Shown here: positions 191-64,000 of the stretch, piece after piece
Layout: each line of letters starts with the position of its first letter
Position numbering within the stretch: the first letter of the stretch is position 1
Assembly (NCBI RefSeq): GCF_000189635.1
Contig: NW_002476162.1
Span: 62,001 to 126,000 of the forward strand
DNA length: 64,000 nt
Reading direction: 5' to 3'
DNA from: Tetrahymena thermophila SB210
Lineage: Eukaryota; Ciliophora; Oligohymenophorea; Hymenostomatida; Tetrahymenidae
Made by a program: the position numbers and the translations under genes
The notes under the pieces: generated by a model
The model's database searches: none
The model's input: only the letters and a program-made list of their open reading frames with translations
Told to the model about the DNA's origin: nothing

Positions 191-1187
191 ATTTCAGTTG
201 CAAGTTTATCCATTTATTATGTAAAACTAACTTTTTATTTTTTAATGTGTTTTTGATAAAATAAATAATGTATGTTAAAATAAATAAATAATTATTAATT
301 ATCAGGAAGATTTTTTTATAAATATACAAAAAATATAAAAGATATTATTTATTAGCTGATTTAATTATCAAAGAACTTCTAAAGAAAAATCTTTGAATCT
401 ATGTTAAGCATAGATAGATATTTCATTCATAAATTTACAAATTTTTTCTCTAATCTAATAAAATAGATCAATAATTAATAAAAATTAAGATTTTTCTAAA
501 GAAAAGTAAATAGAAATAAATATATATTTTTTAATTTTAAAACTTTTACAAATCTCAAATACCCAAAAATAGCATAAATCAGACACTCAATTCCTCAGCA
601 AAATAAATTGATAGTTGATATTTTAATTTTGTTATTTATGATTGGTTGAAAAATAAGTATTGTATAAATATAAATTACTGACTTAAATGTAACAACCACC
701 TTTAAAAGAAATCAAAAAATATCTTTACTTCTTCTAATTTCTTTAAATCTTCTAAATTATTGTAAGCTATTAACTTACATCTAAATTTAAAAAATTCAAA
801 CAGCTTAATACTATTCATATAAATTTTAGAGTTTTAAGATTTTATTATTAAAATTATTAACAAAAATTATATTTTTTGATAAGTTTATTTTTATAAAACA
901 AAATCTATAAAATTTTAACTCAAATCATTTTTTAAAATATTTATAAAAAGCAAAAAATTTTTTTAGTCTTTAAAAAATATGGTGAACATTTATTTTGGAA
1001 ATAATTAATTAGAAGTTACAGTATAAAATATTATTTAATGAATCAAATATATCTTTTAAAAAAATTTAAGTTTAAAGAGTGAAATACAAATAAATCAATA
1101 TACATTTAATCCCAACATAAAGTTTCTAAATAATATATTTATGTATAAAAGCTATGCATTTAGCAATAATTAAATTTAAAAAAACTT
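191..1187. other. AT-rich spacer downstream of copy 1
   Basis: No coding frame is supported here. Positions about 220-960 resemble 29480-30150, so this spacer was duplicated together with the neighbouring DLH-like sequence. From about 970 on, the sequence aligns with the 3' flank of the other giant-gene copies (14963, 33880 and 50755). Confidence 0.6.
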
Positions 1188-4100
1188 TCAATTCTCTTGA
1201 GTTTATTGAGATTCAAATACATTAATATTCTTAGATTACTTTTTAACTATAAAACTAATTGGAGATCTTGCGATGCTATTTTCCTCAAAGTAATCTTTTT
1301 TTTTAAATTAATGAACAAAATTTTAATGATTATATTAATTTATACTTATAAATTCGTCATCTGTCTTCATGAGTTAGAATTTTTCTATTTTTAAATTATC
1401 TCTTTCTCCTGATTTTCTTCTATCTATTTTACCTTTTTAGTTTTAAAAAAAATCTTAATATTAAAAAAATTTATTTTCTTACCTTGAAGACTAATCTATG
1501 AAATGCTTTGAAGTTTTTAGAAAGAGTTGCTTATACCGTAGAGAGATGTTTATTAATTCATCTATATAATTAAATTTTTATTTTGTTCTTGTTCTTCAAT
1601 AATTTCATCAACTTGGTTATTACTTTTCTGTGCATTAGAATTTCTTTTCTTAAGTCTAATATATTTATATACTTCTTTTTAAACTTTGTTCCATCTTTTC
1701 ATTACTTAAAATTGATTGGAGCTTTATATTATTATTTAACTAGTTAAAAATTTAGGAAATATATCTTTTAATTTTATTAGCAATTAATGAAACAAATTTC
1801 TTTATTGAGGATCAAAAGGTATTTCTCTCAAAATTACTTTCAATAAAATTCTCACAATAAACACAAAGTTGAAGAAAAATATAATTATAGTAGAAATATT
1901 CTCCCAAACTGTATTTCCCATTTGATTGATTATTATTGCTAAGACGATAGAATTAAATTATAGAACTGTAGCCATTAAATCTAGATTATTTAGTTAAATA
2001 CTGCTATATGGTTTACTAAAGAATGATGCTAAACCATAAAAAAGTAATACCGATAAGGAAACTAAAGCTTTCTATCCAATATTATCAAAAAAGGTGCAAA
2101 GATAAATTAAAGATTTTTAAGTTGCCTTTATTATTTCCCAGTAGTATTTTTCTTATCTATACTCATAAAATAAAATGCCATAGACTTTTATATTTTCAAT
2201 TTTTGTAAGGTTAGTTCTTTTTTATTTTAGTTTAGAAAGGAAAAATAAAGGTAAAAGTAAATAGAGTAACACTAAAGAAGGGATCAAAATAAAAAATATA
2301 TTTTATTTATGATCATCTCCAAAGCAGATATACTATTTATCTGTTAAAACATAAGAAAAATCACCAATTTAGACACAGCTAAGTTATTAGACAAAATAAT
2401 TTATAAGGCTTGGGGAAAAGAAAAGCCATAAGAAGATAAATGAGCACTTTATATCATAGATATACAATCTATAATAATTAAGTTTGAATTTTAGTAAAAA
2501 TATACCTAAAGCAAATATAAATAAGTAAGTTAAGGGAATCAATATCCTTAAAATTGATCTCCTTGTTAATATATTTCCTACATTTAATGAATTAATCAGA
2601 ATACAATCTATTGACATCCTTTAAATTAATATAATAATATTTATTTTTCAAAGGGGGTATAAAAAAATTTATTTTTTTATTATTAATTCTAACAGTTTTT
2701 AATATTTAAAAATTCTCTTAAAATGGCCTTAATATAAGTTGGCCTTAATTAATGAGAATGCACGGTATATATTAACTAAATAATAGAAATAATTTTATTT
2801 TTAAAAAAATAAATTACATCGAATCAGATGAGGAGTCTCCAAAAATACTAATTACTTATTTGAGATAATATGAAAAATTTGTAAATTAGAATATGATTAT
2901 AATAATTTAAACATAATTGATTAATATCTTAGTAGCAACCGTATTCTAATCAGACTCAGATGATTTGCCAATACAAATAAAATTTAATCGCTTGATATAC
3001 AAAAAAAGGCATTTCTGAGTAGTGAATCTTTATATTTTCCTAAAACAGAATAATAAATAGCACAAAATAGCTAAATATAAAAGGAAATAAGAAATAATAT
3101 CTATATAATTATCTTTGCATTTCATACAGCTAAGATTATTGCTTCTAGAATATTAATCTCCCCATAATTAATTATTAATATCACAACTTTCGCATAAAGC
3201 TCCTATGTGGCCAACATTACAAATTGATTTTTCAAATTATTCTGTAATAAAATTGCAATAAATTAATATTATGAAATTTTAAGTATTTACCTTAAGACAT
3301 TTCGGAAGTGAAGTTATAATTATACTAGTTTTATGTTTATATGCAATTAGAAGGATTTGAACATGCAAATACCTTGCCCGATTGTGGATTTAATCTCCAG
3401 TATCCATCTTATAGAACTATTATATCTTTTTCACAATAACTAGCTTATTCAGGGCAACGACTGCATTGATAAGTCTCAGAATTAGAAAAACTGCTTATAT
3501 AAGAATATGTCCCTATTTTTTTAGTTTATTTTTAGGGATTGAATCATTTTAAATTTTAATATAATCGATCATATAAAATTTGGTTTTGAAAATAAGAAAA
3601 GCATAAAATAATTATCGTAATTTATAAAGTTTGATAACAAAAAATTTTTTTACCTTATGGACATTCATAACATGAAATGAGATTAAATTCTTACTTAGGA
3701 ATTTAGCCAACTAAGCAAGGCAAAAATTTTAATTAAATATTACTTTCTACTGAGCTTAATATGAAACAGTTTTATTAAATATCATAAATTGGTACCTTTG
3801 AAGAAAGTTAAATTTATAAAAACTAAGTACTAGAAGGATTGGATGTTATTTAAGGTTAAAAAGCGATATAATTATTAAAAATTTAAATTCCTCCTTATAT
3901 ATGCATTTTCGCCTCATCTTAGTTTACAATAAGAATATCATATCCTTAAAACTCTTAAATTATCATTTAATGAACTTTATTTGCTTCAATATTTAAGGGG
4001 TAATTTACTACTTCTTCAAATTCATCAATCAAATAAAATATAAGAGGTTAATTTAGAGTATTTCCAGATACCAATTAAGATAGCATTTATGTATAATCTT

Positions 4101-7100
4101 TGTGGAATTTGATTGATTTTGGATAAGAGGTAATTTATTAGCCAAACAAAAGAGCTTTGTTATTAAAAATATAAGATTATTAAATATCAAGATGGCGATA
4201 TTTATACTGTTTATCTATATAAATTAAAGAAGAGTTCATTCCTTAGTATCTGATTCCACCTCCTATTACTGCATAATTAAAGGAAATTGTACAATTATTT
4301 AGCTAAACTTAGCTATTACTAATATATATTCCCCCACCGCAACCCTTTTCAACAGTGTTCTATGAAAAAATTGAATTATTAATTACTATATTTTTTGTTG
4401 TATCAAGCGACACTGTTCCATAAAAAGATTCTTAGAGGTAATTCATATTAATAATCAAGTAATTCAAAATTATTTTGCTATGCTAAAAAATGTAAATCAC
4501 TTAACCAGTTTATAGATTATTATCATTAAATTAACTATTTTATATCTAACAACTTAAAGAGTCTAATTTAGAGCCTAAATTTTTATGCTAAAAGCTATTC
4601 AACAAAAGTAATGAGCCAAAAATCTAGTTTTTATTTACAATTAAGTTTTATAATTTAATTATGTTCGAATAAAATTAAATTGCATCACTATTAAATATTC
4701 CATTTTAAATGCTCATATTTTCTACATTTGTATTTAAACTTGATAGATAGATTGAAGGGTTTTATTAATCTTTAAATTAACTATTTATAACTATTAAATT
4801 ATTAATTATAACTTAAGAAACTATGACTATTACTTCATTATAAAATTATTCTTATATTTAAACAAAAGAAGGTCCTGAACTATTTGTAACTGTAAGATTT
4901 TATAAATTATTTATTAAAGATCCCATAGTTTATATTAAAGAGTAGGATGTTCCTTCAAATTAAGAACCATAAATTTACAGACTTTAGATAAAAAAATTTT
5001 TGATATTAGAAGAAGATATTATAGAACCATTTGACTTAGTGATATTCACTAATATATTATTTAGTGTTAAATTTCCAATGTTTTAAAAGCTAAATATACT
5101 GCTTATTTGTAGATTTGAATTTTAAATAGCAATATTTGATATGCTTAAAGTTTAGATGCTGTCAAATGCAATTATATATTCCAAAGATGGAGATCCATTT
5201 TAAGTGGTAAAGTTTTTAAATGTAAGTCTGTCTAAATAAACAAAGTTGACATTTTTAATTAAAACCATGCAGCTATTCTGTGCACTGCTATTATTCAAAT
5301 GTTATGAAGTGATAAATTCTGAATTTGAAATTATGAGCTCATTCATATTTTAAAATATAATACAAACTTAGCTATCCAAATCAATTATTGTATTTGTTAT
5401 ACTTAAGTTTAAAAGGTTTTAGTTGTTATTTATATCAATTGTAATTGGAGTAATTAATTGTTTATTTTATGGTTATTAAGGAATTGTGAGCCTCATATTC
5501 AAAATTTCTAAATTAGCTATGCTTGCATTAAAAATGTTGTTGATATTATTATAATTTTAATTTATCAGATAGACAAGTGCATTTTGAGAATCTGAATATA
5601 ATCTTAATGTAAAATTAGATGGTGTTAGTGTTTAAAAAATATCTTATCTTAAATAGAGACTTGTTTGTGGAATAAAATATATCTCTAAAATTTAAATATT
5701 GGCATAGTTTTTTGAAACAAATTAATCCTAAATAGCTTGCATCTTTACAGAATATTGAAGTAGGGATAAGTCTTAAATATAATCACTGAATGTGAGTACA
5801 CACTATTAGTTTGAAGCATATCTTGAAGAATCAACATTTTAATTTGTAGTTAAAGTGTATTATAGCAATCTAATATCATAATTAGAGCTGACAACCATTG
5901 ACAACTAATATGTATTTAGTTACTATACAGGATTTAAAATAGCATAACCAATTATAGGTAAACTGACTTAAAATGATTATAATAGATAATAATTATTTTT
6001 AGAAAAGTAGTACACATCAATTTCTGTTTTAGAAGCTAGAAGCATAATTGATTTCGATAATATTTAGATTTGCTAAATACTTGTAATGTTTAAAGACCTT
6101 ATAGTTAGATAAAGCGAAAAATCAATTAAAGAATAAATGTTTGCCTGTCCAAATGTTTGCAAGACTAAAAACTATGAAATTTATTCCGATATCTTTGACT
6201 CTTCATATTTTTTATTGTAAAAGAGAGGAATTTGATTAGAAGAGGACAAATCTCTCAGCTTTTAAGCAGGTAATTTCAAGTTATAAAGTGAATTTATTAA
6301 CACACCATTGTTATCAATAGCTACTAATTTTAAATCAAATGTCTATTGGAGTTCTAACAAAATGTATTAGCTGCCAACTGTTAATTATTAAATATTATTT
6401 GCCATTTATAATTTAGATAATTTATTTTGACTAGGATTCCAACAAAAAACAATATTATTGCAATAAAATACTAATGGTAGATTTGTAGTACTTTGAATAA
6501 TATTTTTACCAAATGTTATGTTTTAATTGGTTAATTATTGATCTAACTAACTTATCTATGTAAACTTGAAACTATTTGGGTCTTAAATGTTAATTTTTAT
6601 TACATTCATACCTTATTGGTCAAAGCAATATACAGTTTAATTACGTATATTGCAATCATTAATTAGTTATTTAAATTAACTAGAAATTAAACTTATCATC
6701 TTACTTTCATAGTCTATAATTTATAGATATAAAGTAGAAGTTATGGTGTTTTAAAGTAGCAGAACAGGGAAGAAGCTTAATTCTTCTAGTAAAGTGTAAT
6801 ATTGGTAATTAATTGATTAAAAATAATATGTTTTAAGGAGATTAATATTTTAATTATTACTCTAATATACACAATACCTTAATATATGATGTTAAATAAT
6901 CATATATTATTAAATATCATTTGTATCTTATTTTAATATTTGTATAATTCTATAATTATACTTAGTGCTATTATTTATATTTGATATTTGTCCAAGTGGT
7001 CCTCCTTTTAATGTAAATTATAAATCTTAGTCTTGAGTCACATCAAAGCTTAAAGATGGTGTTATTGTTTAATTTTACAAAGAGATTTAATAAAAAGAAA

Positions 7101-10100
7101 TTTAATTGTAATTGAATTCTCTTGCAAATACAATTAAATTATCGTTTTAGTTTATTGCCTATGGGATATAACTAATTAAATCTGCATTTTGAGGACCTAA
7201 ATAAAAATTCTAATAATCATAGAAAGTAATTGAAGAGTAATCATAAATTATGATGTTTTCTTATGTGATGCATGTAAGTATATTGCTTTGTTTATCAAGG
7301 CTTATAGATATAATTTATCCTCCAGCTTAGGATTAGCTTAGATTTTCTTAAAAGTTGAGATAATGAATTATTTAAGTTTATGAAATTTAAATAAAGAACA
7401 CATTATCTACAAATACTATAATAAGTATATCCTTTTAAAAATCTTCTATTATAGTAAATTAAGTTTACTAGTTATATTATGAAAAAGTTTAGGAGTACTA
7501 AGAGATATCTATTGATCTAACCTGAGAAGCCGAAGTTGTATATTAATCGTCAAGATACATTATTTAAATTAATAACTTTTAGTTAGGTGCTACAATAACA
7601 TTTAATGGGTAATCGTAATAAGAAAGTTGATCGATATCAATACTCTAGTTTTATCAAATGTTTAATGTTTAAATAGAATAAAATAAAAAATTAGATAAAT
7701 AATAAATAATGATTTATTTTTGTGTTTTTTAAAAATGAAGTAAATTTAATTTAATTTATTAATACCATAATTTCTCATTTATTCTGCATTAATCTTTAAA
7801 TCATTTTACAAATATAGTTTGCATTCAAAAAAAAAAAAACACTGAAGAATTATTTAATTAGTTTAAACATAATATCTGAGAATTTAAGGTATTTAAATAT
7901 TCAAGTAAAATAGTTAAAAATTAAACTTACATTTATAAATGCAATAGTTTTAATAAGTTTGAATTAAGAACTATAGATCTAGCATTGCATATAATCTTAA
8001 TTACATAAAATAATTCTTTGATTATAGCTATCATAGAATTATTTAACAAATGTTACAGTTTAGAATACTATAGCAAAGTAATTAAATTTTTTAAATGATG
8101 GTGCAGTATATACTACAGCGATACATGGATTTGTTACTAAATAAAACAAATTTAACTAATCCAAACTATATAAGCTTACCATACGAGAATTTCCTAATAT
8201 TTTAGTTGTTAAAAACCAATTAGTTTTATTTTAGCTGTATGAAAAGCTTGTTATTTATGTAGTTTATTTCAACAGAATATTTTTGTTAACTCTATCAAAA
8301 GATGAGGTACATTTTAGAATAGGATCATAATTTGAATCTTGAGGCATTTAATACATAAATTAACCAGTAGAAAACTAAAAAATGAACCATTAGCAGAATG
8401 AATTTGATATAACTAAAGTATCTTCTTAGAAATCAATAATAAACTGATTAATTTAAGAAGGTATATTATCAATCATTTATAGGATAGACTCATTCTTATA
8501 AATTATAAAACCATTATCATAATATATTGTTTAATAGTTTCCATATGATTAAATACCTTGGACATTTGTAAGAGTTGGTTAGTTAATTTATGCTATAATA
8601 TTAATCTATTTTAATATTTTATTCTTTAAAAACTATTTTAATTTATAAAAACTTACATTTAGCTGCGATTTATATAAAGTTGAGCATAAAAACATATTAT
8701 TTTATGAATCCCTTAAAACAAGATATATTGTATCTTGAGATATATCAATACACGAGGCTAAATTGATATAATTTAATTTTGAAAGTGATATATAATCAAG
8801 ATACATTTATCCAGGTACTTTCATTTGAACCTAAGTACTAAAGATTAATGATTTAAAAATAAGATTAATTTATAATTAAAAATTATTACTTGTTAAGCCC
8901 TTAATTACCATAAATGTTACAGATTCCAGAATTATCTTAATCTAAAAATAGCGATTTTTAATTTAAGTAGCTTTCAGAAAAATACTAAATAGTTTACTAT
9001 AAACATGATATAGAAGGCTATTATATCTAAAATAATTATTTAATTTGACTTTAAGATAAAGAATAAACCTTAAAAGTAAATCCTTAAAGGAATCCAAACT
9101 TTTATTAATAATTAAATAATTATTAAATAAAAAAAATTAAAAATCAATTAAATTTTAAAATTTACATGAATTTAATCATAAAATGTTATTATCTAGCTAA
9201 CTGAATAGGAGCATTATATAGTTTACTCAGAAGAAGATGGATAATGTATAATTTAGATCTTGTTTAAATCATATGAAGCTAAAATAAAGTCACCATAAAC
9301 AATTTAGTAAATAACCTTTCCATAGGCAGAGTATTAAACTTACAAGTAATTTAAGTTATTATCTATAAAATTTATTTAATTTTATTGAAAAATTACAATC
9401 AATTGCTTGTTTTGATAGTAGATAAATTATGAGGTAGATTAAATTGTAAATTATGTTTATTTAATTATGTTACCTAAAAAATCTATAATAAACATATTAT
9501 TTACTGTTATGCATATTATATTTTTATCAATAGTTTAATAAGCATAAAGAATATTTTCTACTTATTGGCCATTAAAAAGCTTTAAATCATAAGTTGTCAA
9601 ATTTATGAAGTCAAAGTATGAAAGTATTGCATCCGTTTAATCTACCAGACATACTATTTTTTTATCTTAATCAAAAAATCTATAGGCCTAGCTCTGTTAT
9701 TTAATTAAAATTTAAAAATTATATTTATTGATAATTATTTACATATGTTAGATCTAGTCTTGCAGGTATTTCTTTTATAATTTATCCATTTGATGCATAT
9801 GCTACAACTGATTTCCAATTTATGTCGTCGAAATTGTAGACATAAAAATTTTCATCGCTATCAAAAAAGGGAATACCATTTGAAAATGCTCTTGGCATAG
9901 CTACTTAAGTTATAAACTCTGATTCATTCTAAGGGTCTTTAGAAAAATCTATTATCAAAATTCCTCCAAGCTAAAATAGATATAATCTATTTTTTAGTTT
10001 ATTTTGTAAAGGAAAATATAATTAAATATAGTTAGTGCTCAAAATTATATCTCCATTTCTCATATCCCTCAATTAATAACTTTATTGAAATCCTTGCAAG

Positions 10101-12231
10101 GCATATTTTTATCCTTAAGAATCATAAATATTTGAGGCAAAATTTCCAAAATGGTAATTTGGGTAATTTTATGTCTTGCAAATAGTTTATTTATCTATTT
10201 TATAACTTTAATTATCATTCAAGATTATTGAAGCAATATTATTCTCATCAGTAGTAATAACAATATCTCTGTCCACAATATGAATACTATAAAAATATGT
10301 ATTGAAAAAGTATTGCTTAATTGTTAGAAGATTCAAATCTTATTTGAAAATGTAATTAGATATGTAAAAATTGGCATAAATGACATTATCTCCTAATATT
10401 TAATTAAATATCATTTGAGTATTTTACTAAAAGCTTACTATTTCGCTAATTTAACTATCGCCGCTTATGTTTGAAGTAATGTTGAATAATTTATAAGACA
10501 AATTATTATAAGAAACTTTTTAATTCTGTAAAATAAGCATGATCTTAGTCTCAGAAGAAAGAAAGCTTACAAAGTAATTGTTTATATCCATATTTTAGAT
10601 GATAAATTCTTAACAGCTTTAAACAGATTTTTCATTGATGATTAAAATAGCATAGTTATTTGCTCCAGTTAAGATGTATATTTTTTCAGTGGCTCTGGAT
10701 ATTGCATCATACTTGTTATAAAGATAGCATATAGGTAATTATTGCTTATATAAAACTCCGGTTTAAGTTTTACCACTGCTATCGATCCATTTTTCTAAAA
10801 AAAATATTATTAAATAAATTTTTAAAATATCTTTAAAAATACCTGCTGATTTGTATATTAAAATTTCTTAACTAAATTATACAATACATATATAGTAGCT
10901 ACTATCTGCTTGAAACTGTATAAATTTTTTAAACCAATCCTAAGAAGAGTTATTATTAAAGATATTTACTACTTCAAAAAGTAGTACATCTTATTCACTT
11001 TGTACACAAATATAATCTGTTCCATTATAAGAAGCAAAGTCAAAAAAAGACAATGTACCACTAGATGACTATTATAGAGCATGTATTTCCTATATTTGTG
11101 GTGATTTCAGGTCAAATGCTTAAATATATTTAGGGTATACGCAGAGATAAAATTACTCTTTTAAAAAATAAATATTTAGTTTTTGATGGTAATTTTACTA
11201 TTTCTTTTTAAATTAGAAAAGTATTGAAATTTAATAATTTGAAAGTAAGGTTTATTGAAAGTTTATTTAAAAATATATTTAAAATGTAAATAAATTTATG
11301 CATTTTCACAATTTTTTTCTTTCGGTCAGTATTCCTAAATGATATTTTAGCTGATTTGTAGAAGTAAATAATTTAAAAAATAACTTTGTAAAAATTATTT
11401 AATATATTTTGTAAGAAAATATTTGAATAAAAAGAAAATATAATTAGAAATTAAATATTTTTAATATAAATTTTAAATTAAATTACTTTGAGATAATTTG
11501 CAAAACAATGAGTTATTTGGATTACTTAAAGTTGGTTGAATCTCTGAAAGAAAATTTATAACAGGTCTAATATATCTCCAAAACTTAATATTACCTATAT
11601 TATCGTAAGTGACCATTATTTCTTATTAATTGTTATCAATATATTTTTCAATTGATAAAATCGTCTATTTGTATATTACTTAGTATGTGTGACATTAATT
11701 GCTTTCAGATTATTATATAGGGCATTTGTTTATTGTTTAGCATGTTGAAAACTGGTCATTTTTTGTTTGTCCTAATCCACACTAAAAGGTACACTGGCTA
11801 TTTTAAAGTAGAAATTGCGACTAGTTTAAACAATCAGAGACGCATATTCCATTTTTTAGCTAAAAGTTTTCTTTACATACTTTACAAGTATTTTAAGTAG
11901 CGCACTGAAGACATCCCTCTAATTAGCACTATTAGCACTAGTTTTTTAATGAGTCAAAATAATATTAACAGTCACTTAGACAGCTTTTATAATCTTCGCT
12001 TAAATAAAAAGCCGTTGAGCATTGCTAACAAGTTTAATAATATTCTGAATATAAGTTAGAAGAAGGGTTCAATCCTACTTAGCAACTTTCGCAATTTTAA
12101 GAGCATTTAAAACATTAATTTTAGTAAGGGTCAAATCCTTATCCTTAAGGGCAAGTTTAGTCACTTGAAAACACCAAGCTCAAAAAACTAAAGGTAATTA
12201 TTAGCAATTTAAATATCATTTACTTAATCAT
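1188..12231 (-). CDS. Giant Cys-rich/beta-helix multi-pass membrane protein, paralogue copy 1 (3240 aa, 12 exons)
   Basis: Predicted cell-surface protein; ligand unknown. Exons (minus strand): 12231-11487, 11157-10843, 10794-9743, 9693-9166, 9098-8890, 8837-8657, 8605-7931, 7644-3654, 3512-3291, 3241-2818, 2618-1483, 1432-1188. They total 9723 nt, exactly 3241 codons, with TAA/TAG as Gln and TGA as stop. The ATG opens a signal peptide (about residues 1-23). Residues 26-182 carry CxxC-type furin/GFR-like repeats such as CFKCSQNCESC. About residues 250-1300 look like beta-propeller strands. The 3991-nt exon holds Asn-rich beta-helix repeats with CGGGIYISNSQ near residue 2335. Next come ISCYECPQG, DGYWRLNPQSGK and CNVGHIGALCESCD, which resemble an extracellular Cys-rich module known from large ciliate membrane proteins. 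About seven hydrophobic spans follow (about residues 2670-3060), then a charged, Gln/Asn-rich tail. This copy is apparently intact. The exon model is hand-built. Confidence 0.88.
2619..2817 (-). other. Intron 10 of copy 1, with a conserved pyrimidine block
   Basis: This GT...AG intron lies between the exon ending in the conserved DSSSDS motif and the exon beginning MSIDC. On the minus strand it holds a run of five C about 35 nt before the acceptor (G run at 2653-2657 on the plus strand). The run stands out in otherwise nearly pure A/T intron sequence. Equivalent runs occur at 35579-35582 and 52430-52434, and at 16651-16655 in copy 2. Confidence 0.6.
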
Positions 12232-16689: not shown

Positions 16690-16795
16690 ACAGTTTTTAT
16701 TATAAAAAATAACAGATAATAAATTTACATATATACTGTAATTCCTCTAAAAAATGGGGGTTGAGTCAGGTCTCTGACTATCTAATATATATTAT
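16690..16795. other. Filler sequence at the deletion junction of copy 2
   Basis: About 100 bp with no counterpart in copies 1, 3 or 4 replaces about 1.27 kb of gene. It contains an unusual G run (ATGGGGGTTGAG near 16755) and a perfect 6-bp hairpin, AGTCAG-GTCT-CTGACT at 16764-16779. The hairpin carries the TGA that closes the upstream frame. Confidence 0.7.
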
Positions 16796-33071: not shown

Positions 33072-33103
33072 ATTTTCACTCACTTTAATTTATATCTATT
33101 TTA

Positions 33104-49689: not shown

Positions 49690-50340
49690 GCATATTCAGC
49701 TCCTTACCAAACACCTTTTACATATTTATAATTAAATATTTGCAATAACTAAAAATATTATTATTTATTCGCTGACTATATTACGTTAAAATCTACTCCA
49801 GCTTTGTTTTATTCATTTTCTAATTTTTTAGTAGTTTTAGGATCAGACATTCCTTTAATATAATCTAACTCTCCATGATGGCCTTAGACAGGAACTTTTA
49901 TATTCTTTATTATGTATTTTGTTTAATCAAGAATACCATAGAAAGGAGCGCCTGCGCTAAAGATACCATAATTTGTAGAAAGAGCAGCAAATGTGAAAGT
50001 AAAAATACAGACTTTTGAGATCCTAATTGATACTTTAAGTAATTGGCAGCTCCTTTCATATCTTCAGTTGATCTACTCTAGTCTAAATCTTTAAAGTGAT
50101 GATCAACTTCTTTTTAAAAATTAAGAAATATACAAATTAAAATTATTATAAATTATCTTACCTCTCTATTTTTAGCAGCAGCTCCTCTATAAACACCAAG
50201 GATTATAGAATTAAATCCTTAATCATCAACATTATTAGCTGTGATAGTAAGTGACTTGCTAAGACTCCATCATTTTTGAATTAAAACTAATCATAATCAA
50301 AGCTTGGATCCTTCATATTTTTTTTAATAACCTAATCCTT
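49690..50340 (-). pseudogene. Dienelactone hydrolase-like pseudogene
   Basis: The minus strand shows most of a DLH-family protein in pieces. At 50290-50170 it reads VLIQK, then TGA (50272-50270, a Trp site), then WSLSKSLTITANNVDDQGFN and LGVYRGAAAKNRE. At about 50090-50010 it reads TEDMKGAANYLKYQLGSQK. After a frameshift where GFCxGG should be, at about 49995-49800 it reads FAALSTNYGIFSAGAPFYGI, KNIKVPVQGHHGELDYIKGM and SDPKTTKKLENE. Several TAA codons fall at Gln sites, consistent with ciliate code. At least one nonsense change and one frameshift mark it as non-functional. It lies downstream (left on the plus strand) of giant-gene copy 4. Confidence 0.78.
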
Positions 50341-50975: not shown

Positions 50976-53900
50976 TCAATTATCTTGCGTTTGTTGAGAT
51001 TCAAATAAGTTAATATTCTTAGATTACTTTTTTGCAATAAAGCTAATTGGAGTTCTTGCGAAGCTGTTTTCATCAAAATAAGCTTTTTTATAAAATTAAT
51101 GTACAAAATATTAATGATTTTATTAATTTATACTTATATTCTCGTCATCCATTTTAGTGAGTGAGAATTTTTCTATTTTTAAATTATTTCTCTCACCTGA
51201 ATTTCTTCTATCTATTTTACCTTTTTAGTTTTGAAAAAATTTAATATTAAAAAAATTCATTTTTTTACCTTGAAAACTAATTTATTAAATGTTTCGAGAT
51301 TTTTAAATAGAGTTGCTTAACCCGTATAGAGATCTTTATTAATTCATCTATATAATTAAAATTTTATTTTTTTCTTGTTCTTCAATAATTTCATCAACTT
51401 GGTTATTATTTTATTGCTTATTGGAATTTCTTTTCTTAAGTCTAATATATTTAAATACTTCTTTTTAAATTTAGCTCCATCTTCTCATTACTTAAAATTG
51501 ATTGGAGCTTTATATGATTAGTTAACTAGTTAAAAATTTAGGAAATACACTTTTTATTTTTATTAGCAACTAATGAAACAAATTTCTTTATTAAGGATCT
51601 AAAGGTATTTCCCTCAAAATTACTTTCATCACAATTTTCATAATAAACACAAAGTTGAAGAAAAAAATAATTATAGTAGAAATACTCTCCCAATCTGTAT
51701 TTCCCATAAGATTGATTATTACAATAGAATTAAATTATAGAACTGTAGCCATTAAATCAAGATTATTTAGCTAAATACTACTATATGGTCTACTAAAGAA
51801 TGATGCTAAACCATAAACAAATAATACTGATAAAGAAACTAAAGCTTTTTATCCAGTATTATCAAAAAAAGTGCAAATATAAATTAAAGATTTTTAAGTT
51901 GTCTTTATTATTTCCCAGTAGTATTTTTCTTATCTATACTCATAAAATAAAATGCCATAGACTTTTATATTTTCAATTTTTGTAAGGCTAGTTCTTTTTT
52001 GTTTTAGCTTAAAAAGGAAAAATAAAGGTAAAAGTAAATAGAGTAACACTAATGAAGGAATCAAAATAAAAAATATATTTTATTTATGATCATCTCCAAA
52101 GCAGATATACTATTTATCAGTCAAAACATAAGAATAATCTCCAATTTAGACACAGCTAAGTTATTAGACAAAATAATTTATAAGGCTTGGAGAAAAGTAA
52201 AGCCATAAGAAAATAAATGAGCATTTTATATCATAAATATACTATCTATAATTATTACTTTTGCATTTTAGTAAATAAATGCCTAAAGCAAATATAAATA
52301 AGAAAGTTAAGGGAATCAATATCCTTAAAATTGATCTCCTTGTTAATATATTTCCTACATCTAAAGAATTAATCAGAATACAATCTATTGAAATCCTTTA
52401 AATTAATATAATAAAATTTATTTTTTAAAGGGGGTATAAAAAAATTTCTTATTTATTATTTATTCTTACAGTATTTATTATAAAAGATAAAATGAAAATA
52501 TCCTAAATTTTTCAAAATAATGTAACTCTTAAAAATTTTTGATTTATAATTTTGATGAGTAAATATATTTATTAACTAAATAATATAAATAATTATATTT
52601 TTAAAAAATAAATTACATTGAATCAGATGAGGAGTCTCCAAAAATACTAATTACTTATTTGAGATAATATGAAAAATTTGTAAATTAGAATATGATTGTA
52701 ATAATTTAAATATAATTGATTAATATCTTAGTAGCAACTGTATTCTAATCAGACTCTGATGATTTGCCAATACAAATAAAGTTTAATCGCTTCATATACA
52801 AAAAAAGGCATTTTTAAGTAGAGAATCTTTATATTTTCCTAAAACAGAATGATAAATAGCACAAAATTGCTAAATATAGAAGGAAATAAAAAACAATATC
52901 TATATAATTATCTTTGCATTTCATGCAGCTAAGATTATTGCTTTTAGAATATTAATCTCCCCATAATTAATTATTAATATCACAGCTTTCACATAAAGCT
53001 CCTATGTGACCAACACTGCAAATTGATTTTTCAAATTATTCTATAATAAATTTTTTATAATTTAATATTATTAGATTTTAAGTATTTACCTTAAGGCATT
53101 TAAGAAGAAAAGCTATAATTCTACTAGTTTTATGATTATATGCAATTAGAAGGATTAGAGCATGCAAATACCTTGCTCGATTGTGGATTTAATCTCCAGT
53201 ATCCATCTTATAGCACTATTATATCTTTTTCACAATAACTAGCTTATTCAGGGCAACGGCTGCATTGATAAGTCTCAGAATCAGAAATATTTCTTATAAA
53301 AGAATATGTTCCTATTTTTGTTTATAGTTAAAAACATCTTTTAAATATTTTTTTTATTTATTTTTAGAGCTTAAATCTTTTTAAATTTTTATGTAATCGC
53401 TCTTACAAATTTTTGATTTTGAAAATAAGAGAAGCATTCATTTATTATTGGATTTTAGAAAAAGTTTATATAAAAAAATGTTTACCTTATGGACATTCAT
53501 AACATTAAATGAAATTAAATTCTTACTTAGGAATTTAACCAACTTAGCATGGTAAAAAGTTTAATTAAATATTACTTCCTACTATACTTAATTTGAAATT
53601 GTTTTATTAAAAATTGTAAATTGGGACCTTTGAAGAAAGTTAAATTTATAAAAACTAAATACTAGAGGGATTAGAAGTTATTTATGGTTAAAAAGCAAAA
53701 TAATTGTTAAAAATTTAAATTCCCCCTTATATATGCATTTTCAACTCATCTTAGTTTACAATAAGAATATCATATCCTTAAAATTCTTAAATTATCAATT
53801 AATGAATTTTATTTGTTTCAATATTTAAGGGGTAATTTACTATTTCTTCAAATTCATCAACCAAATAAAATATAAGAGGTTAACTCATAGTATTTCCAGA

Positions 53901-56900
53901 TACCAATTAAGATAGCATTTATGTATAATCCTTTTGAAATTTGATTGATTTTGGATAAGAGGTAATTTATTAACCAAACAAAAAAGCTTTGTTATTAAAA
54001 ATTTAAGATTATTAAATATCAAGATGGCGATATTTATACTGGTTATCTCTATAAATTAAAGAAGAATTCATTCCTTAGTATCTGATTCCACCTCCTATTA
54101 CTGCTTAATTAAAGGAAATTGTACAATTATTTAACTAAACTTAGCTATTGCTAATATATATTCCCCCACCGCAACCCTTTTAAACTGTGTTCTTAGAAAA
54201 AAGGGAATTATTAATTATTATGTTTATTGTTGTATCAAACGATACTGTTCCATAAAAAGATTCTTAGAGATAATTCATATTAATTATCAAGTCATTAAAG
54301 ATAACATCACTGTGCTAAAAAATATAAATAACTTAACCAGTTTATAGATTATTATCATTAAATTAACTATATAATATCTAGCAACTTAAATCGTCTAATT
54401 CAGAGTCTAAATTTTTATGCTAAAAGCTATTTAACAAAAATATTGAACCCTTTATCTAGTTTTTATTTACAATTAAGTTTTAAACATTTATTATGTTTGA
54501 ATAAAATTAAATTATATCGCTATTAAATATTCCATTTTAAATGCTCATATTTTCTACATTTGTATTTAAACTTGATATATAGATTGATGGATTTTAATCT
54601 TTAAATTAACTATTTATTACTAACAAATTATTAATTGTAACTTAAGAAACTATGACTATTACTTTATTATAAAATTATTCTTAAACTTAAACAAAAGAAG
54701 GTCCTGTACTATTTGTAACTGTAAGATTTTATAAATTATTTATTAAAGATCCCATAGTTTATATTAAAGAGTAAGATTTTCCTTCAAATTAAGAGTTATA
54801 AATTTACAGACTTTAGATAAAAAAATTATTTGTATTAGAAGATGATATTATAGAACCACTTGACTTAGTAATGTTCACCAATATATTATTCAGTGTTAAA
54901 TTTCCAATATTTTAAAAGTTAAATATACTGCTTATTTGTAGATTTGAATTTTAAATAGAAATATTTGAAATGCTTAGAGTTTAGATGCTATCAAATGCAA
55001 TTATATATTTCAAAGATGGATATTTATTTTAAGTGGTAAAGTTTTTAAATGTAAGTTTGTCTAAATAAACAAGGTTTACATTTTTAATTAAAATCATGCA
55101 ACTATTTTGTTCACTGATATTTATCAAATGTTATGAAGTGATAAATTCTGAATTTGAAATTATGAGCTCATTCATATTTTAAAATATAATACATACTTAG
55201 CTATCCAAATCAATTATTGTATTTGCCATACTTATACTTAAAAGGTTTTTGCTACTATTTATATCAATTGTAATTGGAGTAATTAATTGTTTATTTTATG
55301 GTTACTAAGGAATTGTGAGCCTCATATTTAAAATTTCTAAATTAGGTATGATTGCATTAAAAATATTGTTGATATTATTATAATTTTAATTTATCAGATA
55401 AACAAGTGCATTTTAAGAATCTGAATATAGTCTTAATGTAAAATTTGATGGTGTTAGTGTTTAAAAAATATCTTATCTTAAATACAGACTTGTTTGTGGT
55501 ATAAAATATATTTCCAAAACTTAAATATTGGCATAGTTTTTTGAAACAAATTAATCTTAAATAGCTTGCATCTTTACAGAATATTGAAGTATGGATAAGT
55601 CTTAAACATAATCATTGAATGTTAGTACACACTATTAATTTGAAGCATATCTTTAAGAATCAACGTTTTAATTTGTAGTTAAAGTGTATTATAACAATCT
55701 AATGTCATAATTAGAGCTGATAACCATTGACAACTGATATGTATTTAGCTACTATACAGGATTTAAAATAGCATAACCAATTATAGGTAAACTGACTTAA
55801 AATGATTATAATAGATTATAATTATTTTTAGAAAAGTAGTACACATCAATTTCTGTTTTAGAAGCTAGAAGCATAATTGATTTTGATAATATTTAAATTT
55901 ACTAAATATTTTTAATGTTAAAAGACCTTATAGTTAGATAAAGAGAAAAATCAATTAAAGAATAAATGTTTGCCTATCCAAAAGTTTGTAAGACTAAAAA
56001 CTATGATATTTATTCTGATATCTTTGACTCTTCATATTTTTAATTATAAAATAGAGGAATTTGGTTTGAAGAAGACAAATCTCTCAACTTTTAAGCAGGC
56101 TATTTCAAGTTAAAAAGTGAATTTACTAGCATACCATCTTGATCAATAGCTACTAATTTTAAATCAAATGTCTATTGGAGTTCTAATAAAATGTATTAGC
56201 TGCCAATTTTTAATTATTAAATATTATTTGTCATTTATAATTTAGATAATTTATTTTGACTAGGATTCCAACTGAAAACAATACTACTGATATAAAACAC
56301 TAATGGTAGATTTGTTGTATTTTGAATGATATTTTTACCAAATATTATATTTTAATTGGTTAATTATTGATCTAACTAACTTATCTATGTAAATTTGAAG
56401 CTATTAGGGTCTTAAATACTTATCGCTATTAAATTAATCCCTTGTTGGTCAAAGCAATATACAGTTTAATTACGAATATTGCAATCGTTAATAAGTTAAT
56501 TGAATTAACTAGAAACTAAACTTATCATATTACTTTCATAGTCTAAAATTTATAGATATAAAGTAGAAGCTACTGTGTTTTAAAGTAGCAAAACAGGAAA
56601 GAAATTTAGTTCTTCTAGTAAAGTGTAATATTGGTAATTAATAGATTAAAAATAATATATTTTAAGGAGATTTATATTTGAATTGTTAAGTTGATATAAG
56701 CAGTACCTTAATATATGATGTTAAATAATTATATATTATTATAAATCATTTGTAGCTTATTTTAAAATTTTTATTATTCTATAATTATACTTAATGCCAT
56801 AATTTATATTTGATATGTTTCCAATTGGTCCTCCTTTTAATGTAAATTATAAATTTTAGTCTTGAGTGATATCTAAGCTTGAAAATGGGGTTATTGTTTA

Positions 56901-59900
56901 ATTTTACAAAGAGACTTAGTAAAAAGAAATTTAATTATAATTGAATTCTCTTGAAAACATAATTAAATTATCATTTTAATTCCTTACTTATGCTATGTAA
57001 TTAATTAAATCTGCATTTTGAGGACTTAAGTAAAAATTCTAATAATCATAGAAAATAATTGATGAGTAATCATAAATTATGATGTTTTCTTATGTGATGC
57101 ATGTAAGTATATTACTTTGTTTATCAAGATTTATAGATTTAATTTATCCGCCAGCTTAAGATTAACTTAGATTTTCTTAAAAGTTGAGATAATGAATTAT
57201 TTAAGTTTGTGATATTTAAATAAAGAATACATTATCTGCAAATACTATAATAAGTATATCCTTTTAAAAATCTTCAATTATAGTAAATTTAGTTTCCTAG
57301 TTATATTATGAAAAAGTTTAGGAGTACTAAGAGATGTCTATTGATATAACCTGGTTAGTAGAAGTTGAATATTAATCGTCAAGATACATTATTTAAATTA
57401 ATAACTCATAATTAGGTGCCACAATAGCATTAATTGGATGTTCATAATAAGAAAGTTGATCTATTACAATATTCTAGTTTTATCAAATGTTTAATGATTA
57501 AATAAAATAAGTGAATTGATAAAAATTGGATAAATAATAAATATTGAGATATTTTGATATTTTTTAAAAATAAGATAAATTTAATTTAACTTATTAATAC
57601 CATAATTTCTCATTTATTGTGTATTAATCTTAAAAGAGTTTTGTAAATAAAGTTAGCATTAAAAAAATAAACACTAAACAGTTATTTTAATTATTTTAAA
57701 TATAATATCTCAGAATAATAGGTATTTAAATTTTATATTTAAAATTAAACTTACATCTATGAATGATATAGTTTTAATAAGTTTGAATTATGAACTATAG
57801 ATCTAGCATTGCAAATAATCTTAATTACATAAAATAATTCTTTAGTAATAGCTATCATAGAATTACTTAATGAATGTTATAGTCTAGAAAACAAGAACAA
57901 AGTAATTAAACTGCTTAAAAGATGGTGCTGTATATACCACAGCAATACATGGATTTGTTACTAAGTAAAACAAATTTAATTAATCCAAACTATACAAGCT
58001 TACCATGCGATCGTTTCCTAATATACTAGTTGTTAAAAACCAATTAGTTTTATTCTAGCTATAAGAAAAGCTTGCTATTTATGTAGTTTATTTCAACAGA
58101 ATATTTTTGTTAACTCTGTCAAATGATGAGGTACACTTTAGGATAGGATCATAATCTGAATCTTTAGGCATTTCATACATAAACTAACCAGTAGAAAACT
58201 AAAAAACGAACCATTAGCAAAATGAATTTGATATTACTAAAGTATCTTCTTAGAAATCAATAATGAACTGATTAATTTAAGAAGGTATGTTATCAATCAT
58301 TTATATTATAGATTAGTTCTTATAAATTATGAAGCCATTATCATAATATATTGTTTAATAGTTTCCATAAGATTAAATACCTTGAATATTTATAAGAGTT
58401 GGTTAGTTAATTTATGCTAATATATTAACCTATTTTAATAATATTTTATTCTTTTAATAGTTATTTTAATTTATTAAAACTTACATTAAGTTGTGATTTT
58501 AAAAAAATTGAGCATAAAAGATTATTATTTTATGGATCCCTTAAAACAAGATATATTTTATCTAGAGGTATATCAATACAAGAGATTAAAGTGATGTAGT
58601 TTAGTTTCAAAAGCGATATATAATCAAGATACATTTATCCAGGTACTTTCATTTGAACCTAAGTACTAAAGATATTAATGATTGAAAAATTAGATTAATT
58701 TTTAATAGTTAAAAATTATTACCTATTAAATCCTACATTACCAGAAATGTTGCAGATTCCAGAATTATCTTAATCTAGATATAGGGCTCTATTGTCTAAG
58801 TAGCTATCAAAAAAATATTAATTCATTTATTATTAACATGATATCAAAGGTAAGTATATCTAAAATACTTATTTAATTTGATTTTAAGATAAAGAATAAA
58901 CCTTAAAATTTAATCCTTAAAAGAATCCAAACTATTATTTATAATTAAATAACTATTAAATAAAAAATTAAAAAATTAATTTAATTTTTAATTTTTTTAA
59001 ATTGTTAAAAACAAACCAATTTATTAGAAATAAAATTTTAAAAATACAATTTTTACTCATTCATTAAATTAATTTAGACTACTTTAAAACTTTTGTAAAA
59101 ATTGTTTTAATTGATTTTTAAAATTTTATTTTATTGAAAAATGACCTTTATTATTGAGAATATTGATTCTATTAAAATACCTGAAAAATAAACAAAAAAG
59201 TGCTCAAAATTTTTCTTTTTTACAATAAATAATTAATTTTTCTATTGAAGAAAAAATAATCAAATATTATTTGGAAGTGTGGTTACTTTTTTAATTTAAA
59301 TAAAAAAAATTACATGAATTTAATCATAAAAAGTTATTATTTAGCGAACTAACTAGGAGCATTTTATAATTGTCTCTGAAGAAGTTGGATAATGCATAAT
59401 TTGGATTTTTTTTATATCATATGAAGCTAAAATAAACTCACCATAAATAATTTAATAAATAACATTTCCATAGGCAGAGTATTAAACTTACAAGGAATTT
59501 AAATTATCATCTATAAAATTTATTTAATTCTATTTAAAGATTACAATTAATTGCTTGTTTTGATAGTAGATAAATTATGAGATAGATTAAATTGTATATT
59601 ATTTTTATTTAATTATCTTACCTAAAAAATCTATAATAAACATATTATTTATTGTTATGCATATTATATTTTCATTGTTAATTTAATAAGCATAAAGAAT
59701 ATTTTCTGTTTACTGACCATTAAAAAGTAGAAAGTCATATGTTCCCAAATTTATGAAGTCAAAGTATGAAAGTATTGCGTTTGTTTAATCTACGAGACAT
59801 ACAATTTTTTTAACTTAATCAAAAAATCTATAGGCCTAGCTCTGTTATTTAGTTAAAATTAAAAATTATATATATTACTAAATTATTTACAAATGTCAGA

Positions 59901-62457
59901 TCTAACCTGGCAGGTATTTCTTTAATAATTTATCCATTTGATGTGAATGCAACAACTGATTTCCAATTTAGATCATCGAAGTTGTAGACATAAAAATTTT
60001 CTTCGCTATCAAAAAATGGAATACCATTTGAAAATGCTCTTGGCATAACTACTTAAGTTATAAACTCTGATTCATTCTCAGGGTCTTTTGTAAAATCTAT
60101 TATAAAAACTCCTCCAAAATAAAAAAGATATATTCTATTTGTTTATTTATTTTGCAAAGGATAATATGAATAAATTTAACTAGTGCTCATAATTATATCT
60201 CCATTTCTCATGTCTCTCAATTAATAGCTTTATTGAAATCCTTGCAATGCATATTTTTTTCCTTAAGAATCAAAAATATTTGAACCATAATCTCCCATAT
60301 GATAATTTGGAGTTTTTTATGTCTTGCAAAGAGTTTATTTATCTATTTTAAAGCTTTAGTTATCGTTCAAGATTACTTAAGCAATATTGTTCTCATCAGT
60401 AGTAATAACAATATCTCTATCCACAATATGGATACTATAAAAATATGAATTGAAAAAGTATTTCTTGATTGTTAGCAGATTCAAATCTTATTTGAAAATG
60501 TAATTAGATTAGAACGAATTGGCATAATATATATTATCTCCTAGTATTTAATTAAATATCATTTGAGTATTTTACTAAAAGCTTACTATTTCGCTAATTT
60601 AACTATCGCCGTTATTTTAAGTAATGTTAAATAATTTATAGGATAAATTATTATAAGAAACTTAATAATTCTGTAAAATAAACATTAGTTTAGTCTCAGA
60701 AGACAGGAAGCTTACAAAATAATTGTCTGTATCCATATTTTAGATTATAAATTCTTAACAGCTTTAAACATATTTTTCATTTAAGATTAGAATAGCATAG
60801 TTATTTGCTCCTGTTAAGATGTATATTTTTTCAGTGACTCTGGATATTGCATTATATTAGTTATAAAAATAACATATGGCTTATAATTGTTTATATAGAA
60901 CTCCATTTTAAGTTTTACCACTGCTATCGATCCATTTTTCTTATAAAAAAAATATTATTAAATAAATTATAAAAATATATTTAAATATACCTGCTGATTT
61001 GTATATTAAAATCTCTTAACTAAATTATACAATACATATATAGTAACTACTATCTGCTTGAAACTGTATAAAGCTTTTAGACCAATCCAAGGAATAGTTC
61101 TTATTAAAGATATTTGTTACTTCAAAAAAAAGTACATCTTATTCACTTTGTACACAAATATAATCAGTTCCATTATAAGAAACAAAATCAAATAAATACA
61201 AAAAGCCATTAGATGACTATTATAAAGTATGTATTTCTTGTATTTGTGGTGATTTCAGGTCAAATGCCTAAATATATTTAGGGTACACACAAAGATAGAA
61301 TTACTCTTTTTAAAAAATAAATAGTTTTAATCGTAAAAAAAATTTAGATTAAAAAAGATAAATATTTTATTTTGATTTAAATATTTTCTATTTATAAATT
61401 TTAATTTTTGATGATAACTTTACTCTCTCTTTTTAAAAAAGAAAATTTTAAAATAAATAATTTGAAAGTAAGGTTTATTTTTCCAAATCAAAATTTATTA
61501 AAAAATATATTATTTGTAAATAAATTTTATATATATTCACTATTTTTATTGTATTCAGATTCAAAAATCATATTTTATTTAGCTGATTTATTGAAGTAAA
61601 TTATTTAAAAAATTACTTATGAAAATTTTATTTTAAATATTTAGCTAGAATTCAAACGAAATAATAAGGATAATCGAATTAAAAATTAAATCTTTTTTAT
61701 AAAATTTTTAAATTAAATTACTTTGAGATAATTTGCAAAACAATGAGTTATCAGGATTATTTAAAGTTGGTTGAATCTCTGAAAGGAAACTAATTACTGG
61801 TGTTAAATATCTCCAAAACTTGATATTTCCAATATTATCGTAAGTGACCATTATTTCTTGTTAGTTGTTATCAATATATTTTTCAATTGATAAAATCGTC
61901 TATTTGTATATTACTTAGTATTTGTGACAATAATTGCTTTCAGAGTATTATATAGGGCATTTGTTTACTGTTTAGCATGTTGAAAACTAGTCATTTTTTA
62001 TTTATCCTAATCTGCACTAAAAGGTACACTGGCTATTTTAAATGAGAAATTGCGACTAGCCTAAACAATTAGAGACACATATTCCATCTTTTAGCTAAAA
62101 ATTTTCTTTACATACTTAGCAAGTATTTTAAGTAGCGCACATAAGACATCCTTCTAATTAGCACTACTAGCACTGGTTTTATTATGGGTCAAAATAATAT
62201 TCACAGTTACTTAGACAGCTTCTATAATCTTCACTTAGATAATAAGTAGTTTAGCATTGTTAACAAGTTTAATATTATTCTGAATATAAGTTAGAAGAAG
62301 GATTTAATCCTACTTAGCAACTTTCGCAATTTTAAGAGCACTTAAAACATTAATTTTAGTAAGGATCAAATCCCTATCCTTAAGGGCAACCTTAATCACT
62401 TGAAAATACCAAGCTCAAGGAAATTAATAGCTATTTAAGATATGTATATTTTATCAT
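50976..62457 (-). CDS. Giant Cys-rich/beta-helix multi-pass membrane protein, paralogue copy 4 (3232 aa, 12 exons)
   Basis: Same architecture as copy 1. Exons: 62457-61722, 61305-60991, 60939-59891, 59841-59314, 58931-58723, 58665-58485, 58429-57755, 57473-53486, 53311-53090, 53040-52617, 52395-51269, 51220-50976. The coding total is 9699 nt, exactly 3233 codons. The start is an ATG with a signal peptide (MIKYTYLKQLLISLSLVFS). Every length difference from copy 1 is a multiple of three: 9 nt fewer in exon 1, 3 in exon 3, 3 in the large exon, and 9 in the seven-span exon. The N-terminal Cys clusters, CGGGIYIS beta-helix motif, GYWR-type module and long Gln-rich tail are all kept. The exon beginning MSIDC in copy 1 begins with Ile-Ser-Ile here, showing that this Met is internal and not a start. 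Apparently intact; role inferred only from domains. Confidence 0.88.
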
Positions 62458-64000
62458 TTTTAGTTTTTTTCTTACTTAAATTTTTGTTTAATTATTTATT
62501 TATTATTTCTTTAATTAATTTTCTACTTTTTTTAAACAGAAAATGTTCGTTAAATAAATTGAATTCTGTTTATTTAAATAAAAAAATTCTTTCGTTGAAA
62601 TTAAGTAAAAATAAATGCAAAGTAGAAAGTTAAAATCAACTTTTTTGTTTAAATGTTATGAATTTAGCATGATGAATTTCTTTTTATAAATCTATTATTT
62701 TTTTTGGTTTAATTCAAATAAATAAAAAAGTTTACTTGCTAAAATCAAATTTAAAGGTCATTATATTATTGAGTGTTAAATAATGAGTATTTAACATACA
62801 AATGCTAATTTCATTATTAAAATAATTCTCATTTATTATTTTGCTATAGTTTGTATAGTTTTAAGTATTTTTAAATTATTTTAGCAACCTTATTATATAA
62901 TATAAATCTTCATTAAACAAGATCTGAAAGTAAAGCAGTCATTTTTTCAACTGATGATTTTTTAATTTTTTTATAAAAATGAAAATATGATTTTATTAAT
63001 ATTCTAACTGAATATTATAAGGTATATATTTATTTAAAATAAAAGAGTAAAATAAGATATTTTTAAATAAAATGCAAGAGATTTTTAGTTTTATTGATTT
63101 ATGTTTAGAGACTATATTACCATTTGAATTATTTAACAACAAATAAAATAAGAATCAATTTTTTATTTTCTTTACAAATCAAAAATAAATAATGTATGTA
63201 TCTCTCAGTTTTAAATTTTACTGGATAAATAAATTTAATGTAAATTAAATAAACATCAATTTTTAATCTTAGTCTTGATCTATCTCTGTATCTCTGTTCC
63301 TTAATTTCATTCAAAAGTAAATGAAATAAATTGAGTGTCTAAATATTTTTTAAATTTAGAATGATAGATTGCAATTAGTATTTTAAATATATTTTATTCT
63401 TTCTTTTATAAAATAATTGTTAGCTTTATTCTTTATTTGAAAAAATTGCTATTTTATTAATTCTTTGTTTTATGTTTTTTTATTATCTGTAATTATTTGT
63501 TTATTAACAAAACCCTTTTTGTTTTAGATTATACTGGATTTGATTAATCACAAGAATTAAGAAAATAAAATAGAAGAAGTAGAAGAAACAAAAATTGAAT
63601 GATTATTTTAAATTTCCTTTTTTTCAAAGTTATTAATTTAATTTTCTTTTTGTTCAAAAAGCTAAAAGCTGAAAAATAATAAAAGCAATATAATTAGTAT
63701 AGAAGAACTCTTAAATAATAGTAAATACTTATATAAAATAAAGCTATTATCGATATGTAATTAGATAAATAATTTAATTTAAAATATTTGGACATTTTAA
63801 TTATTATATCTTTTTAATTCATAATCTTCTTAGTACATTACTTTTTTCAAACAACATAAATTCAAAAATCTAGTTAAATCAAAAACTATAAAAGAAATAA
63901 AATAATTATTTTAAGTTGATTTTTTAGTATTTTGTGGCATGGATTTTTAAAAATAAAATAGTATAACTTTGGTTAAAAATTTGAAGAAAAATAATAAAAC
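62458..64000. other. Spacer upstream of copy 4
   Basis: 5'-flank sequence homologous to the other spacers up to the window edge, for example the CAAAAATCTAGTTAAA block near 63866 matching 14077 and 47247. No gene is seen. Confidence 0.6.

Follow-up and report, generated by a model that had tools for sequence, protein, structure and literature searches.

Here we describe a tandem array of giant genes in a 64,000-nucleotide stretch of the Tetrahymena thermophila SB210 genome (C328:62001-126000, on contig NW_002476162.1; hereafter the window), whose products are predicted to be surface proteins crossing the membrane many times, together with their relatives in the rest of the 101 Mb (445 contigs) searched. 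The sequence was read with genetic code 6, in which TAA and TAG stand for glutamine, and under this code the window holds 77 open reading frames (ORFs) of at least 200 amino acids, against none under table 11. DNA self-comparison revealed four long copies, named A to D, all on the minus strand and 87.5–93.6% identical to each other over 11.1–12.3 kb of aligned columns; a fifth copy, E, lies on another contig (C167). One 12-exon structure with conserved introns, its exon boundaries set by five-copy alignment and its stop coordinates checked, fits A, C, D and E, whose frames stay open over 3216, 3160, 3208 and 3213 amino acids, respectively. A gene finder with self-trained splice sites, which drifted to 260 exons, was discarded, and stricter gene finders, which split or fused the genes, were set aside. 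No Rfam match was found in the window. The genes of the array are as follows (window positions):

1188 to 12231, minus strand: copy A, intact, 12 exons, 3216 residues (comparative model)
12231-11487, 11157-10843, 10794-9743, 9693-9166, 9026-8890, 8837-8657, minus strand: first half of the copy A exons, 5' to 3' (comparative model)
8605-7931, 7644-3654, 3512-3291, 3241-2818, 2618-1483, 1432-1188, minus strand: second half of the copy A exons, 5' to 3' (comparative model)
16766 to 25434, minus strand: copy B, truncated gene, ectodomain frame (reading frame and blastn gap relative to A 2712-3955)
15335 to 16616, minus strand: 3' exons left over from copy B, coding for spans 3-9 and the tail, orphaned by a deletion (comparative model)
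34262 to 45434, minus strand: copy C, 3160 residues (comparative model)
50976 to 62457, minus strand: copy D, 3208 residues, intact (comparative model)

An earlier reading of this DNA, made from the letters alone (the sequence-only reading), had proposed four same-strand copies of an 11-kb gene for a protein of about 3.2 thousand residues. Number, strand and size are borne out, genes A, C and D spanning 11,044, 11,173 and 11,482 bp and encoding 3160–3216 residues, but the full architecture is present in only three of the four copies, B being truncated. Copy B lacks the stretch equivalent to A 2712-3955 (1.2 kb) and carries 78 other bases there instead (blastn and alignment); its frame stops at a TGA at 16766, after 2445 codons including the stop, which cover the ectodomain without the Cys module or the membrane spans. 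The deletion junction itself (16710-16787, 78 bases) has no match longer than 16 bases in the rest of the window. A and B share 93.6% DNA identity, the remaining pairs within the window 87.5–88.9%, and identity to E ranges from 86.0 to 86.7%. A and B are closest in the 3' two-thirds (identity windows), and 5.2 kb of them are 96% identical, a pattern consistent with recent exchange between them. In the protein tree (2197 columns) A groups with B (support 100) and C with D (76), with E toward the outgroup side (79). The TGA of C comes 49 codons earlier than the stop in A and D; a TGA stands at the identical last-exon codon in C (34262) and B (15335), and A, D and E continue for 49 residues.

The coding sequences point to purifying selection. 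The ratio of nonsynonymous to synonymous substitution rates (Ka/Ks) is 0.25–0.33 in all six pairs of A, C, D and E, and each of the 32 full 100-codon windows along these copies (a last window of 16 codons was left out) falls below 1, the highest value being 0.60, in the tail, and the next 0.47. With B included, over codons 1-2440 only, Ka/Ks is 0.26–0.34 in 10 of 10 pairs; two divergent relatives on C267, F and G, were left out, their models being incomplete in the membrane region. Over the same codons the branch of B carries 34.5 nonsynonymous and 37.5 synonymous changes, close to the 25 and 32 on the branch of A. Since Ka/Ks stays at 0.25–0.34 and no full window reaches 1, these values argue against diversification by positive selection, and the suggestion of the sequence-only reading that the array reflects diversification of a recognition or adhesion system is not supported.

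From the N-terminus, the intact protein runs through a signal-like helix, Cys-rich repeats, a long stretch of short strands, a beta-helix-like part, a Cys module with GYWR and GxxGxLCxxCD motifs, membrane spans and a charged tail. In copy A, where we use the label exon 7 for 3654..7644, exons 8-9 for 2818..3512 and exon 10 for 1483..2618, these parts are placed as follows:

11487 to 12231, minus strand: exon 1, signal-like N-terminus, Cys-rich repeats (furin/GFR-like by eye) and start of the propeller-like region (hydropathy, Cys positions)
3654 to 7644, minus strand: exon 7, last part of the propeller-like region, then the beta-helix-like region (residues ~1800-2430) and the first part of the Cys module (AlphaFold2 model of the equivalent in D, and Foldseek)
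2818 to 3512, minus strand: exons 8-9, remainder of the GYWR/GxxGxLCxxCD Cys module and spans 1-2 (22-member alignment)
1483 to 2618, minus strand: exon 10, spans 3-9 and the first part of the charged tail; the equivalent region matches PF06011 in other members (alignment, hydropathy, profile)

The N-terminus of copy A is hydrophobic and signal-like, as judged by hydropathy and not by a signal-peptide program, and is followed by 22 Cys within residues 27-180; residues 1-2500 hold 37 N-glycosylation sequons. In an alignment of 22 family members the module keeps 13 invariant Cys, ten of them ahead of span 1. Hydropathy gives eight peaks in the membrane part, to which an amphipathic helix after a YYWE motif was added, so that nine spans were placed by hand. 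In this layout five of five inner segments are net positive, four of five outer segments are net negative and all 13 invariant Cys fall outside, which fits a topology of nine spans with N-out/C-in. Nine spans are thus favoured over the about seven counted in the sequence-only reading, and its view of a receptor-like surface protein gains from the signal-like N-terminus, the sequons and the outer position of the Cys.

The fold of the middle part is less clear. Copy A as a whole matches no Pfam family at an expect value (E) of 0.1; the 22 members gave three stray NCBIfam matches (best E 0.24), and two sequence searches against the PDB gave four matches at E 1.3–5.5, taken as chance, in one and none in the other. 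The AlphaFold2 model of exon 7 of copy D has a mean confidence score (pLDDT) of 35.0, best in residues 641-900, where block means reach 38–75 and the strands are evenly spaced. Foldseek comparison of this model with the PDB returned 594 matches at E ≤10, none at ≤0.001 (best 0.015), and the top 50 we take to be mostly right-handed beta-helices or short propeller-blade (WD40) matches, with a few others (kindlins, TLR1). Thus, from the architecture proposed earlier, the Cys-rich N-terminus and the GYWR module are present in the sequence, while the beta-helix and propellers have weak evidence behind them, namely these fold matches and one relative on contig C10 (below). Structure prediction of single exons, which had been suggested as a check, was run on exon 7 of D, whose model gave weak fold matches, and on spans 3-9.

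A search for more copies outside the window, proposed in the sequence-only reading, did find them. The propeller and beta-helix half of the protein found 17 matches in the genome, comprising seven strong loci plus another ten that are short and weak (E 5e-6 to 6e-4). The seven are A to D and the three following:

C167:790664-802729: copy E, an intact fifth copy
C267:1420-11122: relative F, divergent
C267:384470-396881: relative G, divergent

F and G match at 36–38% identity. C4 and C267 carry CCCCAA repeats at their two ends and C167 at its right end; we take the genome to be macronuclear and of the Tetrahymena type. E, F and G each begin or end within ~14 kb of a telomere, and C267 has telomere repeats at both ends and one relative at each. 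Beside F, on the minus strand at C267:14896-19918, lies a predicted protein of 1533 residues (L019/L020) with numerous Cys-rich repeats and, after them, several hydrophobic stretches, which by eye resembles the layout described for MTA/MTB/MRC1.

The Cys and membrane module is far more widespread. At least 87 matches merge into at least 73 loci on 43 contigs, counts which are lower bounds (81 of 717 candidates were scored), and at least 31 of the 73 loci lie within 20 kb of another. At C262:483358-556392 six module loci follow in a row at 12–17 kb spacing, an array larger than that of the window. From the 66 loci outside the seven we sampled 20, chosen for a single-frame match over most of the module, and all 20 could be aligned over it. 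In the 8 kb upstream of four of these the layout is comparable, with beta-helix-like repeats ahead of the module in 4/4 (by eye). The upstream region of one of the four, on C10, was scanned with Pfam (first 2180 residues) and matches WD40/beta-propeller models, best E 1.6e-13, all under the models' own cut-offs. When profiles were compared, the window family could be joined to all four over a stretch that starts in the later helix region and reaches the membrane part (E 5e-25 to 2e-48); over the propellers there was no join except a 105-column stretch in the C10 relative (E 1e-5).

A probable distant relative of the membrane part came from the genome scan with PF06011, the 'TRP' domain of fungal FLC/Pkd2 proteins. 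It gave 40 places at E ≤10, four of them above the cut-off of the model (three on C176, one on C138). Eight places, including these four, were examined, and a profile search restricted to those loci assigns all eight to the module family, with E from 1.9e-53 to 2e-75; five of them (on C176, C138 and C33) are additional to the 73 loci. Scanned alone, one C176 ORF scores 31.2 bits against a cut-off of 28.5 (E 1.3e-7), covering profile positions 156-400 of 426; in the three ORFs so scanned against Pfam (E 1) PF06011 was the only match, and reversed or shuffled control ORFs gave none (0/5, from 6 made). We consider a relationship of the family to PF06011 likely on these profile matches, which are what is new here. 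For the window copies themselves the same ancestry is inferred and unproven.

Several results weigh against this relationship. The C138 ORF and one more, when scanned alone, reach 22.5 and 22.8 bits, under the PF06011 cut-off. No match to it was obtained with copy A as a whole (E 0.1), the module of A (E 1), the modules of C and D and exon 10 of B (E 10), or the module of E (E 10). Among the 22 aligned members PF06011 appears in one (E 0.027), and stray matches are as good or better: TMEM154 in 3/22 (0.016) and DUF4416 in 1/22 (0.0067). PF14558, the TRP_N/ML domain which forms the N-terminus of the fungal proteins, has no match in the genome at E ≤1, and the AlphaFold2 model of spans 3-9, with a mean pLDDT of 37.9, was uninformative and not used for a fold search. 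Flavin carrier is another name given to the FLCs of fungi, and homology to PF06011 would therefore not by itself prove a channel. The best Pfam match of the modules of C, D and E and of exon 10 of B is TMEM154 (E 0.0056–0.23), far under its cut-off and taken as chance.

Starting from the gene structure, the family, the charge-based topology and the PF06011 match of other members, all shown here, we tentatively favour, at a little short of even confidence, the reading that these proteins are giant multi-pass surface sensors, a superfamily expanded in this ciliate, in which the ectodomain drives a nine-span TRP/FLC-like core. An extracellular part of ~2,500 residues (Cys repeats, propeller-like and beta-helix-like regions) would bind either a ligand or a partner that sits on another cell. 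The disulfide-rich GYWR module would tie it to a nine-span core, N-out/C-in, which would share ancestry with the PF06011 domain, and binding would alter the state of the core, probably through the movement of cations (Ca2+) or through a complex coupled to it. This change would trigger a surface response, e.g. partner recognition or secretion. The channel function of the core is drawn by analogy: in fungi, proteins with PF06011 take part in regulating Ca2+, and Pkd2 of S. pombe is described as permeable to Ca2+ (PMC10732042). The purifying selection on the genes also favours the sensor reading, as do the roles of the nearest described proteins, the CRMPs in secretion triggered by contact (PMC9670195) and MRC2 in mating recognition (PMC10901506). 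The array proteins may serve as sensors of the environment or of cell contact.

The FLC/Pkd2 proteins are like this family in the span 3-9 region of other members, which matches PF06011; they differ in that a giant ectodomain stands here in place of PF14558, and in that no window copy matches PF06011. Related in kind, although compared by description only, are the cysteine repeat modular proteins (CRMPs) of alveolates (such as TgCRMPa/b, PfCRMP1-4, TtCRMP1/2), with a large ectodomain and Cys-rich repeats ahead of multiple C-terminal spans. Those of Toxoplasma and Plasmodium have nine spans, and CRMPs act in contact-triggered secretion and are likened to GPCRs (PMC9670195). Furin-like, ephrin-receptor-like and PbH1 domains are named for them (Fig 1 legend, PMC9815656), and two EGF-like domains followed by nine transmembrane domains make up their conserved core (PMC9815656). 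Copy A likewise has a large Cys-rich ectodomain, with its signal-like N-terminus and 22 Cys. As to the core, nine spans are predicted behind ten invariant Cys, but Pfam found Ephrin_rec_like only weakly in 3/22 members (best E 0.0062) and no EGF family. The differences are that no propeller region is named in the cited passages of PMC9815656, and that TtCRMP1/2 are given five spans against the nine predicted here.

MRC2, of the mating-type recognition complex of T. thermophila, joins a pectin-lyase fold to eight predicted spans (PMC10901506), beside the weak beta-helix and eight peaks or nine spans here, again compared by description only; the members of that complex, at 92–212 kDa, are smaller than the ~3,200-residue proteins of the window (PMC10901506). 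MTA/MTB resemble them in having an extracellular region, a Cys-rich GFR domain and a multi-span C-terminus, and differ in their five spans, head-to-head gene pair and, in the cited passages of PMC10901506, no mention of a beta-helix. Membership in MTA/MTB was rejected on span number (eight to nine against five). A G protein-coupled receptor (GPCR) was likewise rejected, with nine predicted spans and no 7tm family in the 22 members (E 1) or in C, D, E and exon 10 of B (E 10); this check gave weak matches to the Cys domain NCD3G (E 0.23–1.4). GFR and WD40 are listed among the seven commonest domains of species-specific Tetrahymena genes (PMC6564038), and a Plasmodium protein with WD40 and PbH1 is also listed (PMC4456382). 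Among the matches listed for open-access titles and abstract openings, a scope mostly outside the subscription literature, none joins PF06011 to CRMP, MRC2 or this architecture. To say that no described system has this architecture would be too strong: CRMPs and MRC2 are akin to it, even if the descriptions of none of them include all the parts.

These likenesses also feed the most serious competitor, according to which the proteins are contact or recognition receptors or scaffolds of the CRMP/MRC2 type, signalling via partner proteins, with the nine-span core as a dimerising anchor and no ion movement. We regard it as a genuine though doubtful possibility. The EGF-like domains and nine spans of CRMPs, whose cores are predicted to heterodimerise (PMC9815656), the requirement for Tetrahymena CRMP1/2 in mucocyst discharge (PMC9670195) and the finding of MRC2 with the mating-type recognition complex (PMC10901506) speak for it. 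Against it stand the five spans given for the Tetrahymena CRMPs (PMC9670195), a comparison with CRMP/MRC2 by description only, and the match to PF06011 seen elsewhere in the family, which hints that the core does more than anchor.

The beta-helix could also be a pectin-lyase-like catalytic domain of a membrane-anchored enzyme trimming extracellular glycans, which we hold improbable. Polygalacturonases, polysaccharide lyases and other glycan-active beta-helices do occur among the top Foldseek matches, though none of these reaches E ≤0.001 and copy A has no Pfam family. Right-handed beta-helices are often non-catalytic, and an anchored enzyme has no need of a nine-span core. Carbohydrate modification has been suggested for MRC2 (PMC10901506), which would suit an enzyme. 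The tandem arrangement, the recent A-B exchange (96% over 5.2 kb), the relatives near telomeres and the open frame kept in B would agree with a family of variable surface coat proteins or antigens maintained for its diversity, in which the truncated B would be secreted or act as a donor. Yet Ka/Ks is 0.25–0.34 with no full window at 1 or above, and divergence is spread along the protein; antigenic variation was rejected on Ka/Ks, and an antigen family of this kind appears highly improbable. The multi-pass topology also differs from that of the surface antigens of ciliates that are anchored by glycosylphosphatidylinositol (GPI). That the array is an assembly artefact or a decaying pseudogene cluster is hardly credible: B is broken and the dienelactone-hydrolase-like remnants in the spacers are degenerate, but Ks between copies is 0.12–0.29 and the spacers are distinct, which argues against duplication in assembly, and Ka/Ks of ~0.3 and open frames of 3160–3216 codons (A, C, D, E) speak against decay. 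The artefact was rejected on the divergence between copies.

The surroundings of the array hold further genes. Presumed dienelactone-hydrolase-like genes lie on both sides, at 1-226 of the window (running past its left edge) and at C328:127837-128604 (L012), and degenerate copies occur in the spacers between B and C (28849-30166) and between C and D (49599-50316); the duplicated unit may thus have carried a neighbour along. Also between B and C, on the minus strand at 30728-33011, a gene-like stretch has 393 open codons and a hydrophobic part near its end.

As an array the locus is ordinary, the same genome having a longer one; the superfamily with a probable TRP/FLC-type core is more interesting. 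What had looked like an isolated oddity becomes a superfamily that extends over the genome, and its membrane domain has a probable relative. Proteins described as similar in kind serve mating recognition and secretion upon contact, and in the passages cited their membrane core is likened only to GPCRs. A bolder and rather unlikely extension of the sensor reading is that ciliates made an FLC/TRP-type cation channel core into a superfamily (at least 73 loci in this genome) of 'ectodomain-gated channels', each aimed differently by its giant ectodomain of propeller and beta-helix, which would include MRC2 and the secretion-triggering CRMPs of alveolates, so that alveolate contact recognition would proceed by ligand-gated Ca2+ entry. 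If the core is channel-like and its giant ectodomain drives it, this would give a testable mechanism for a class of alveolate surface proteins.

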